Origin: Antedon bifida
Taxonomy: Eukaryota > Echinodermata > Crinoidea > Comatulida > Antedonidae
DNA: 64,000 nucleotides
Direction of reading: 5' to 3'
Assembly: GCA_963402885.1 (NCBI GenBank)
Contig: OY727096.1
Location: forward strand, 17,465,820 to 17,529,819
The notes below the pieces were generated by a model that made no database searches, was not told where the DNA came from, and saw nothing but the letters and a program-made list of their open reading frames with translations. Positions 47,701 through 53,700 of this stretch are shown piece after piece. Position numbers and translations under genes: made by a program. The number at the start of each line of letters is the position of its first letter. Position 1 is the first letter of the stretch.

Positions 47701-50700
47701 ATAGTTAACAATTGTAATGCTAACCTTTGTCTAACTTCAATCCGTATTTTATTTTTACGATTGCAATTCAAATTGTAAGAACACAGTTGAGAAAGCCTTA
47801 CCTGCATTGCATAGGAGACAGACAACCCTACAAGGCCGGGGCTAAGTCTATCACGACCAATCACAGCAAACAGAGATGCAAAGAAGACAATACAGTTTCC
47901 AACAAACTCAAGACGCAGAGCTAACCATCTAGAAGAAACGGAAACAAAAAATATTTTTTCATTGTTGACACTTTAAAATAACCACAAATGTTATCTAGTC
48001 TAGAATATAATACAATACCCAGTGACGTAACATAGAGACCTGAGGCCTCTGGTTTAGGAACCCTAAGTGGCCCTCCAACGCTGGAGGCCTTGTGCGTTTT
48101 TAGCCTTTATCAACATATTTTAATGCCTGTTTTTTTTCCTCTGGGCACTGCTCAGAGGCCCCCATAAGCTCCGGGCCCCTGGGTTTAGTCAGTGAGCTCT
48201 CATAGCTGTTACGCCACTGACAATACAAACACATTGAATTTACCTGTTTGAGCAGATATTTGGGTAATAAGTGACTTGATTTTCATCAATCAACACTTCA
48301 TTTTGTTTGATAAATTCTGACTGACGCTTATACGCTCTTATCGTACTCGTTCCTGTGATAGTCTCGGAGAAGTGCGAGTAGATGGGTGATCGTGATACAG
48401 ACTCCAAACGTTTCAATTGTCGGGATGTACTCACATAAAATCGCTGTTTAAGGATAAAAGAACATGACCAATTTAACCACTACACGTTAGCTTTGTGTCA
48501 GGGAGTCAAGTTCTGAAGTCTCAGTAAGTTGGAAAATTCTTGGGTGGATTAACAATTTATTATTTTTATATTAAGTTATAGACTTGTTACAGTCTAACTA
48601 TAGATATGGAATTTACAAATCTATTGTCAATTGGACAATGACTTTTTAAGTCTTTATTATGTTGGTCTCCAATTAAAATCACATAATTATTTAAAAACTA
48701 ATTGCTATGGCATTTTAGCCTCAAAACTATCAAAATGGTCTTTCATTAGAGTAATTCCTTAATTGAATTATTAACCAAATTCAGCAAATATAAATTTAAC
48801 TTAATAAATCATTATAAATAACAATAAATCCACTAAGAACACAACAAGCAATAAATAGCGCATACACAAATATTATTACTATAAACATGCTAAATGAATA
48901 TCTATTAACACACAACATGCAATACAGTAGTTATTTTTTGCTAATGTAAGAATAATAATAACAATGAATCTAAAATCAAAGATTAGTAGGAAAGTGAGAA
49001 ATGTAACCAGCATACAGGATTGATTGATTTATAAAGTATGGCTTTTTCTATGTTTGACATTCAAAATGTGGGCTACAAGTAGGTAGGCATATTAGACTGG
49101 TTAGTACACAGTAAGTGTTGATAGAATAAATAATAATAAAATGTGTGAAGTTATGGTGAGTAAAGTCATGGGTGAGAATTCAACATTTCAATCTATTTGA
49201 TCATTTTCAGGAATACATTACATAATTAGAGCATTAACAAACAATCTACAAGATTGTCTGTTTATCATAACATTTAACTGTATATTACAGCCAGAAACTC
49301 ATTGAATACCTCATAGGTAAATGGAACATCCCAACAAAATTATCTATCAATCCTTAAATTATGGTATTTTTGCACACTTCATTGATTTATTGAACACCCT
49401 CAACAAGTAAATGGAATAGACAACCAAATCTGACAAATTGGTCAAGTAAAAGAGGTAAATAAAATATCTGAATAAAACTCAAAAGTACTTTTAAATTGAA
49501 AACTGTAAAATAAATGTATTGATATTGAATCAATCAATATATTGAAAACAAAAGTAAAGATGATAGTACCTGAACTATGTAATAGAATAATGCTAATGCA
49601 GGAAAAACCGTCAAAAAATATGGCGAAGACAAGCTGATTATAAACAGGGCCCCTGCCACTTTGAAGAAACAATCCAACCAAGGTCGGATAGTTTCCGGTA
49701 GTTTTAAATCGGTGATGTCAATATCTTTAGAGAACCGATTCAAAAGTCGACCCTTTGGGTTCATGTCAAAGAATGACATTGGTGCTAGTAGTATGTTGTG
49801 AACCATGGCGTTATGAAGTTTTCTGGAGGCCAGGACAGCACCGATGGCAAACACGATGACAGCACCAAAGAGGATGCTTATACCTAGAAGCAAGATAAAG
49901 ATTACATAGTGTTTGTGGAAACATATTAGTTGAAATAAATAGTTAAGAGATGATAAGTAAAATTGGTGTCTCCTGAATAGGGATGCCCCTAATGAGGGCT
50001 TCTACTGTAGTAGTTTCCCCGTTAATCTAGAAATCACAGCCCATATAACAAGTTGTAGAATTTTTTTAGATAATAATGATGATAATGATAACTGTAATGA
50101 TTATAGTGACAAATAATAATAACAAAATAATTAATATATCAATGGTAACAAGTATTTTATGATGACACATACAAACAGTAGAGTAAACAGCAACCTTTTG
50201 TTTTCATGATGTGCTACACGACTATGAAACTGTTGAGTTAAAAAATCATTTTATTCATATGTCTCTGAGTATGCACAGAACGACATTTAGACTCGATAGC
50301 TGTTTAAATCGTGCAGCGTTTTGTGAAAACAAAAGGTACCTAGTATTGAGGAAAAGAATGAACTCTAAGCAGGCTATCGATGATGCTGAAATAAACATTT
50401 AAGTGATAAAGTGAATTGATTAGATTAGTAACAAAGTTCTCCTAGATCAATAGGCTTCTCACTCAGAGCTCGTTCCCTGTCCACAAGGGCAAGTTCTAAG
50501 AACCAAGGAAGACCTTCCCACTCTACATTATGGTTAAGGAACATAGTAGGCCTACTAAATATATCTTTGAAATCCTAACATGGTTTAACATATATGACAG
50601 AGGATTGCTGTATTTAGTTAGGCTAAAGTTCTTTCTTTCTCCTGCTGTCATTGCATAAAGATTGAATAAAAACTACATTTGATGTATCTTGAAAATGATC

Positions 50701-53700
50701 AAAGCGATTAGAAATTTTTTTTTGATTTAAATGACTGCGCATGTGTAATTTTGTTATCGACAGTCCTACATAAGTATAAATAATCATTACTGTACAAAAG
50801 CAATATTGGTAGATTAATGAGGAATACACATTGAAATTGGATCAGCTGAATTTGGTTCTGAATTAAAAAAAGAACAGTAAAACCGAATACAACCATGCAT
50901 TGTAAGATGTATACCAACATTACAGTTAGGGTTGAGTGTGATTGGACAATTGCATTACACAGTAAAAAATAAGCAAAGTTAAACTAATATGGAATATAAA
51001 ATAATGTATTGAAAACTAAAACAAAACAACCACAAACCTGAATAAAGAAATAGACAAAGCCACATGGTAGTAGCGAAATATCAAATATTGGCGTAGTTAA
51101 ACTAATGGCTAAGATTATCTCCACAATTTCAAAAGCTGAAGCAACCATTTCAGAGATGATATCTTGTAGCTTCTCATCAATCACAAATATATCTTTACCG
51201 AATCGATTCAAAACACGGCCTTGTGGCGTTGAATCGAATATTCTCATTGGCCAAAGAAAGATATGTTTCAGAAGGGAATTGTGGAGCACACAGGAGGCTT
51301 GTAGCGAGCCAATGGCAATGCCTAATGCACGGCCAATCACGAACAGTGCTAGAATAAAGAAGGATCAATTTTATTTTAGTGACTTTGATATAAGCTCTTT
51401 GATATTCGGTAACCAATAAAAAATAGCCAGGGGTGAGAAAAGGCCAACCAGATTTTGCACTCACTCCATACAATGCAAACGGTTAAAATAGAACCTTATA
51501 TACAAGAAAATTGAATGATTGTAATACAAACAAAACCTGCATAATTGGGTTTGGAGGGTAGGACTAGTGGTTTGTCCTATATTAGCAAAATTATCTTAAT
51601 ATTGGAACTATAAATGTGTCAGAATGGTAAGAAAAACAAGTATTATTAAGGTTGTTTAGGCTTAGAAATGTTAATGATCAAATTGTTGATATATAATTGT
51701 TGCTGCTATGTAAATCTTTATCTACACTATCAAACTAATTTGACAAAAAAAGTGTGATGTTCCCAAATAGGGTAGCGATATGCTTAAATATGGTAGTGAT
51801 ATGACATCATCATGTCCATGGATGGGTACATCACATTTTTTTGTCACATAAAGTTTGATAGTGTAGACAGAGCTTAAGAGAAGCCACTGCACAATCTGAA
51901 GATGCAAGAGAAACATGGTTAAATATTCCTTGCGTATCTAGGCTTGGTCGAGAGAGATGGATCATAAAACCAAGAGTGTTTCATGATTGAATACAATACA
52001 TCACAGAATATAGTACTTTGAGAAAAAGTCTTACATGCATTATGAATTAAAGAAATGTAATGAAATATAACATACACAAATGCATATTGAGTATATCAGA
52101 TCTATACTGAGCCAAATATGAGGATGATTTAGATAAATAATGATAGAGAAGATTATAAGATCTAAGAACCACATTCTAAACTAATACAAATCTAACATAT
52201 TAAGCCACGTCTAAGCTGATGTTATACAATAAGATGCCCCATAATACAATTCTTTGTTTTTATACCTGCATGAACACATATAAGGCAGATAGGGGTAAGA
52301 TGATCGTCATAAAAAGGGGGGTTGAGTAGCTGATGATGGTCACAATAGCCAGAGTTGAGATTAATGTTCGACAGAGGACAGATAAATTTCGAGGAACCAA
52401 CTCATCAACCACGTATATGTCTCGACTGAAGCGATTCAGAATACGACCCAATGGCGTGGTATCGAAGAAAGTCATTGGAGCATAAAGAATTTTGACGAGT
52501 AGGCTGTTGTGAGCTTGGTGGGAGGCCCCAATAGCTGCTAATGCTACTGCTATTGATGATCCTAGGGTCAGCAAGCCTGGAGAAAATTTATCATTGTAAT
52601 TTGCAAGTCATGAATATGTACATATAAGGTCTAAAAAAATGGTTATGTTGGACAAGTACTTTATATTGAAAAAAAAGAGTTGGTTGGTTGGATTATAAAT
52701 TCTTGGCCGGGATTTATCTATTCTAAACTGATTTTTTTTTAAATACATACAATTATTCATGTAGTTTAAAAAAAAAAAACTACTGGGCTAAAATATAAAA
52801 TTAATAATTAGAGGGTGTTATAAAAATGTTATTGAATTGGGTCTATCTTACTTAGCCAACATAATATTCCTTTTAGGCCTAATATAATGACAATATATGA
52901 AGTGGTATCAATTTCTAAATATTATAAAACAAAAACACACTTGTATTTCTGTGCAAATTGTTGCAATAAGATTAAAAACATAATTTCTATAACAAGTTAC
53001 ATTAAAAGAGTAGTGTAAATTCTATAAAAATAATACAAAATATCTATCATATAAAAAAAGTATATATAATTATGCAACATTGGTGCAACATTACATCATT
53101 TATAATACAACAATATTATGGCTATGGCTACTATTTGCCATTTTCAATAGTCTTATGTTTTTAGTTAATTAATCTTACCTTGAGTAAGCCCGAGGGCAGC
53201 ATAAACACCGAGGTACATGTCACGCTTGCTTGCATCGTTCACTCCATCAACGATGGGTTGGTTACTCCAATGACTCAACCAAAGGTTAGAGCCGATAGAG
53301 GCAGCATTTGACAACAGGTAAAACATTAGGATTAGTAAGCTAAGCGGCAAGCCTACCGATTCCAAGTAAGTCAAATACACAGACCATTTAACCTACAAGA
53401 TAATTTATATCCTTAACTGTAAGCAGGAATGTCAGAATAAATTTCACCCAGGGCTACAATTACTTTAACAGCCTTCTACCAAGTTTATTTACCCATCCCT
53501 AGAAAGCTTATTCAACCTCTATAAATATCTTCAATCTTTAACCTCTTTAATCTTTATCTAACCACTAAATCTTGCCACTCATGCTTACATCAGAGCAATC
53601 AAATATTCTCTTCAAATATTAATTTAAATTAGGCGGGATTGCAACTTAATTTTATTTCAATGAAATCAATTGTACTCCTACTTTTCCAGTTTCGGATTTT

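Follow-up and report, generated by a model that had tools for sequence, protein, structure and literature searches.

Three probably mutually exclusive exons within one slot of an ABCC1 (MRP1)-type gene of the crinoid Antedon bifida

Introduction

Exchange of internal exons in MRP genes has been described in flies, where a figure legend in PMC9741552 gives eight interchangeable exons in one event of the fly MRP gene and two variable internal exons of the Drosophila gene appear in the title of Grailles et al. (2003). Regarding metazoans more broadly, the portion of PMC6071210 that cites Yue et al. (2017) attributes the tandem exon arrays of MRP genes to multiple independent duplications and suggests convergent splicing. 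Independent duplication of MRP exons is thus not a new idea, as it is stated in that portion of PMC6071210.

Here a cluster of three tandem exons is reported from a stretch of 64,000 nucleotides of the Antedon bifida genome (the window). Drosophila MRP (CG6214, dMRP) is similar in having tandem homologous exons, used one at a time, in an ABCC1-type gene, whereas the Antedon bifida gene has three such exons rather than eight and one duplicated slot within the portion of the gene in the window. Likeness also extends to mrp-1 of C. elegans, in which tandem exons of a gene of the same family are substituted for one another, and to the metazoan MRP arrays of Yue et al. (2017), which are likewise described as tandem exon duplications. 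The cluster therefore adds to a recurrent pattern, exon swapping in MRP genes being already known in flies, worms and other animals. The phyla covered by Yue et al. 2017 in RNA Biology reportedly include echinoderms and early chordates.

Results

Gene model and family assignment

The gene was modelled on the minus strand with 25 shared exons and three alternatives, A, B and C, for one slot.

44792..63526, minus strand: modelled part of an ABCC1 (MRP1)-type gene, one open frame, all introns GT-AG

The frame is open across the whole model, the products with A, B and C having 1449, 1449 and 1450 residues without the stop, and the stop codon is at 44792-44794. The gene extends past 63526, its 5' exons lying beyond the window edge, and with respect to TMD0 the first residues of the model fall inside the N-terminal region, which is cut at its 5' end by the window. 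Because the start of the gene is outside the window, there may be a second variable exon farther upstream.

Regarding the gene family, a comparison of the slot region, including exon A, with solved structures placed ABCC3, MRP1 and ABCC2 at the top (E 2e-67 to 3e-65). Outside the slot, seven other single exons were scanned against Pfam; ABC_membrane was above its cut-off in one TMD1 exon and ABC_tran in two NBD1 and two NBD2 exons, and exons E5 and E9 had no Pfam match. On its sequence the gene is assigned to the ABCC1 type (long MRP), with two membrane domains and two nucleotide-binding domains and with MRP1, MRP2 and MRP3 as nearest relatives. A search for relatives of E19 gave 13 pattern stretches on viral contigs and 164 on genome contigs, none of which was confirmed, as expected for an animal gene.

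Anatomy of the alternative exons and reading frame

The slot lies between two shared exons, which are separated from the alternatives and from each other by the following arrangement.

53179..53392, minus strand: shared upstream exon E17, 214 nt, phase 1 at its end, aligning with MRP-type TMD2
52266..52576, minus strand: alternative exon A, 311 nt, with ABCC3 as the top solved relative (E 3.5e-20) and SUR1 a close second
51038..51348, minus strand: alternative exon B, 311 nt, with ABCC3 as the top solved relative (E 4.9e-18)
49570..49883, minus strand: alternative exon C, 314 nt with one extra codon, best solved relative MRP1 (E 3.5e-23)
48244..48443, minus strand: shared downstream exon E19, 200 nt, 42/66 residues identical to MRP1 chain 8f4b

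The introns E17-A, A-B, B-C and C-E19 are 602, 917, 1154 and 1126 nt long. The coordinates, the lengths of 311, 311 and 314 nt, the phases, the terminal CAG, the flanking exons and the splice dinucleotides given in the initial annotation were all re-derived. That annotation had also held that any one copy fits the shared exons and that two together shift the frame, and computation of all joins bore this out: A, B or C singly carries E17 into E19 in frame, and each of the five other joins (none, AB, AC, BC and ABC) shifts the frame and meets stops. In the frame that the joins require, each copy runs for 103-104 codons without a stop, while the other two frames contain stops.

Splice sites were scored on leave-one-out matrices. 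The donors of A, B and C score 6.6-8.9 (constitutive range 1.4-12.9) and their acceptors 7.3-9.7 (constitutive range -0.4-12.6), so that the description of three open copies with good splice sites holds, the scores lying within the constitutive ranges and the frames of the full models being open. Features by which a mutually exclusive cluster is recognised were found here, namely tandem exons that are homologous, similar in length and identical in phase, a frame broken by none, two or three copies and, at the sequence level, functional-looking splice sites on every copy.

Homology and constraint among the copies

All 28 exon peptides were compared with the window by tblastn at a cut-off of E 1. 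The copies share protein identities of 39% (A-B), 37% (A-C) and 37% (B-C), with E values of 6e-19 to 1e-22, and overall the pairwise identity is 36-39%. Outside the cluster A, B and C gave two short matches only (E 0.49 and 0.89); neither a fourth copy of the slot nor a duplicate of any other exon was found in the window by this search. The NBD1 and NBD2 exons matched each other weakly (E 3e-4 to 0.002), as expected, and the scattered short matches of other exons, with E 0.01 or worse (the best from E5, 15 residues, E 0.012), were taken for chance.

Codon alignment of the pairs gives 40, 38 and 37 identities over 103 residues, against maxima of 16, 17 and 17 when codon order was shuffled 200 times. 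Between copies pS is 0.68-0.71 and pN 0.40-0.46, and second codon positions change least; since pS exceeds pN, the copies have been under protein constraint. The dS values of 1.7-2.2 are near saturation and yield no date. Together with the frame and the intact splice sites, this constraint supports well the earlier description of the exons as being of the mutually exclusive type. A motif reported as shared by the copies is indeed common to all three, although its form had to be refined to FDxxPxGRxLNRFxxDI; as it is mostly present in MRP1, MRP2 and MRP3 too, it marks the slot of the family and not this cluster.

Just past the donors of C and B, a stretch of 30 nt is 77% alike (49529-49558 and 50996-51025) and may be left over from duplication of the exon. 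The stretch after C contains one arm of the inner 12-bp stem listed below.

Structural block encoded by the slot

Comparisons with MRP1, MRP2 and MRP3 used the human chains 8vt4, 9c12 and 8hvh. A, B and C each align to MRP1 residues 1026 or 1027 to 1130 (chain 8vt4), in agreement with the earlier statement that they encode the same block of TMD2, and each passes the Pfam ABC_membrane cut-off alone. On the helix limits of MRP1, the slot spans TM13 to TM15, including the cytoplasmic loop that follows TM13.

Within TM14, MRP1 has E, K, M and N at residues 1089, 1092, 1093 and 1100, and the corresponding residues are R/S/V/S in A, D/S/E/E in B and E/R/P/K in C. Residues in this region presumably affect the drug and conjugate selectivity of MRP1. 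With TM13-TM15 falling in the slot and the charges of TM14 differing from copy to copy, it is plausible that the gene encodes at least three transporters of different selectivity, this difference being inferred from position. In PMC7203140, TM14-TM15-ICL7 is given as MRP1 1085-1190 and residues of this segment are discussed, for MRP1/MRP2 chimeras, as important for folding and addressing, which counts against a pure selectivity reading.

Regarding the shared neighbours, E19 is identical at 42 of 66 residues to MRP1 chain 8f4b and at 43 of 66 to ABCC3 chain 8hvh, and E17 at 30 of 69 and 29 of 68, respectively. Since E17 is also less conserved than E19, fast change is not peculiar to the slot. 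The identity of 36-39% among A, B and C is similar to that among vertebrate MRP1, MRP2 and MRP3 in the same slot (41-45%; 8vt4, 9c12, 8hvh). A slot tree of seven rows (A, B, C, MRP1, MRP2, MRP3 and SUR1) left all four inner branches open and therefore decides neither for one origin nor for several.

Candidate docking site and selectors

The introns were folded, as the initial annotation had proposed, with a view to docking and selector pairings, and perfect stems gave a candidate although neither of two energy scans gave anything convincing.

49195..49209, minus strand: candidate docking site, intron after C, able to pair perfectly with 50703-50690 (14 bp) and with 51683-51673 (11 bp)
50690..50703, minus strand: candidate selector, intron after B, forming a local duplex of -28.9 kcal/mol with the docking region
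51673..51683, minus strand: candidate selector, intron after A, forming a local duplex of -15.8 kcal/mol with the docking region
50845..50857, partner 48785-48773, minus strand: outer 13-bp stem around C, perfect Watson-Crick
50195..50206, partner 49554-49543, minus strand: inner 12-bp stem around C, perfect Watson-Crick

Three nested perfect Watson-Crick stems (13, 14 and 12 bp) join the introns flanking C. In the last intron, the arm of the 14-bp stem can form a second pairing, of 11 bp, with an element between A and B. On the transcribed strand of the 64 kb, the introns after A and after B are the only places with TTTGATCATT, and the intron after C is the only place with its reverse complement. 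Because the core, TGATCA, is a palindrome, coincidences of this kind arise more easily.

The score for a docking site in the last intron with selectors after A and B was reached in 3 of 3000 shuffles and, in the same layout, in 2 of 339 placements elsewhere in the window; with any of the six docking arrangements tried allowed to count, the corresponding figures are 32 of 3000 and 17 of 339. A nest of three stems around C, each at least 12 bp long, was matched by 2 of 2000 shuffles and by 4 of 1126 placements, the latter all at one place near 40.6-43.3 kb. The window placements overlap one another, and the cluster was left out of them on both strands. A helix scan allowing G-U pairs and single mismatches found nothing, since out of 100 shuffles between 21 and 88 did as well as the real introns. 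For unrestricted duplexes, the energies of two of the six intron pairs did no better than 1 of 30 shuffles and those of the other four were ordinary; such duplexes span whole introns and are thus uninformative. The docking site is accordingly presented as a candidate, found after looking, with modest and post hoc support.

In PMC6071210, insect MRP1 is reported to have a docking site downstream of the cluster, and the duplication model set out there predicts copied selectors. The candidate layout in Antedon bifida, downstream of the cluster, would resemble that of insect MRP1 as described in this source. Pairing of one site with several selectors, as in the insect MRP1 and 14-3-3zeta type, has two candidates here, after A and after B, again with modest support.

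Other features of the window

Ten neighbouring frames were searched against Pfam; three were without a match and one had a match only below its cut-off. Family assignments were obtained as follows.

7406-7663, minus strand: short-chain dehydrogenase family gene (Pfam)
19974-23177, minus strand: WD40-repeat family gene (Pfam)
30585-33773, minus strand: apyrase family gene (Pfam)
41253-41510, plus strand: MAD mitotic checkpoint family gene (Pfam)

The open frames at 26973-27714 (plus strand) had no Pfam match, and by eye we take them to resemble the mitochondrial complex I subunit NDUFA6. Tandem arrays are present at 23741-25702 (77-bp unit, about 25 copies, 90% matches) and at 7204-7406 (12/36-bp unit, open in several frames). 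A Rfam scan at gathering thresholds and a tRNA scan of the window detected nothing, and a stretch near 56150-56260 that to the eye resembled 5S rRNA was rejected, Rfam giving it no match at E up to 1.

The window contains repeated copies of a MITE-like element whose inverted ends are GTCTACACTATCAAACT, for example at 5666-5800, 51720-51868 and 58390-58536, and its terminal repeats have 19 matches with at most 3 mismatches where 0.21 are expected in the window. The copy in the A-B intron (51713-51880) could pair with related stretches in other introns, at 47559-47699 and 54000-54093. As a regulator of the cluster this copy was rejected, similar copies being spread over the window, and it was masked.

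Discussion

Judging from the sequence, three tandemly duplicated exons of this ABCC1 (MRP1)-type animal gene form, with high probability, a mutually exclusive cluster. Exclusion is enforced by the reading frame. One exon of A, B and C would be spliced between the two shared exons, and mRNAs with none, two or three copies would be non-functional because their frame is broken, and probably degraded. The three resulting pumps would have the same ATPase machinery and a different part of one membrane bundle, and the choice of exon would most likely tune which conjugates or drugs are bound.

That one or two copies have fallen out of use as decaying exons, with a single isoform that matters, could escape notice in so far as dS values of 1.7-2.2 are near saturation and make recent decay hard to see; this is nevertheless improbable, given three frames open over 103-104 codons with stops in the other two frames, intact splice sites, pN below pS and a match of each copy to the Pfam family. 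Still more improbable, to the point of being nearly dismissed, is a misassembly or the presence in one contig of remnants of separate paralogous genes, as only the slot exon is repeated, no neighbouring exons lie beside B or C and the phases of the copies are identical; a haplotype duplicate is excluded by the protein identity of 36-39%.

Regarding how one exon is selected, steric exclusion by short introns was rejected, the introns between the copies being 917 and 1154 nt long, as were incompatible U2/U12 sites, every modelled intron being GT-AG. Competing intron pairings may steer the choice, a suggestion that we regard as tentative and less likely than not. Docking with the element after A would loop out B and C and leave A next to the shared exon, docking with the element after B would loop out C, and C would be used when neither candidate pairing forms. 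A mutually exclusive output could also be reached without RNA docking, with splicing factors choosing the exon and decay removing the out-of-frame combinations, and to this we assign an even chance; incompatibility of frames suffices for the outcome, and the pairing signal is modest and absent from the energy scans, whereas the restriction of TTTGATCATT and its reverse complement to the cluster introns on the transcribed strand of the 64 kb speaks against it. A fuller combination, in which TM13-TM15 was triplicated independently, one docking site and two selectors form a minimal switch with C as default, and three pumps differ in the charges of TM14, is speculative and rather unlikely as a whole.

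Vertebrates obtain diversity from the whole genes ABCC1, ABCC2 and ABCC3, whereas the Antedon bifida gene would do so via one exon. As a mutually exclusive cluster, the locus offers a clean three-exon case of MRP, small enough for complete minigene analysis, in which the exchanged block, TM13-TM15, is a structural unit with defined limits. Should the docking site prove real, it would rank among the simplest selector systems to dissect, and if the reading as a switch is true, one exon would give this animal what vertebrates get from ABCC1, ABCC2 and ABCC3.
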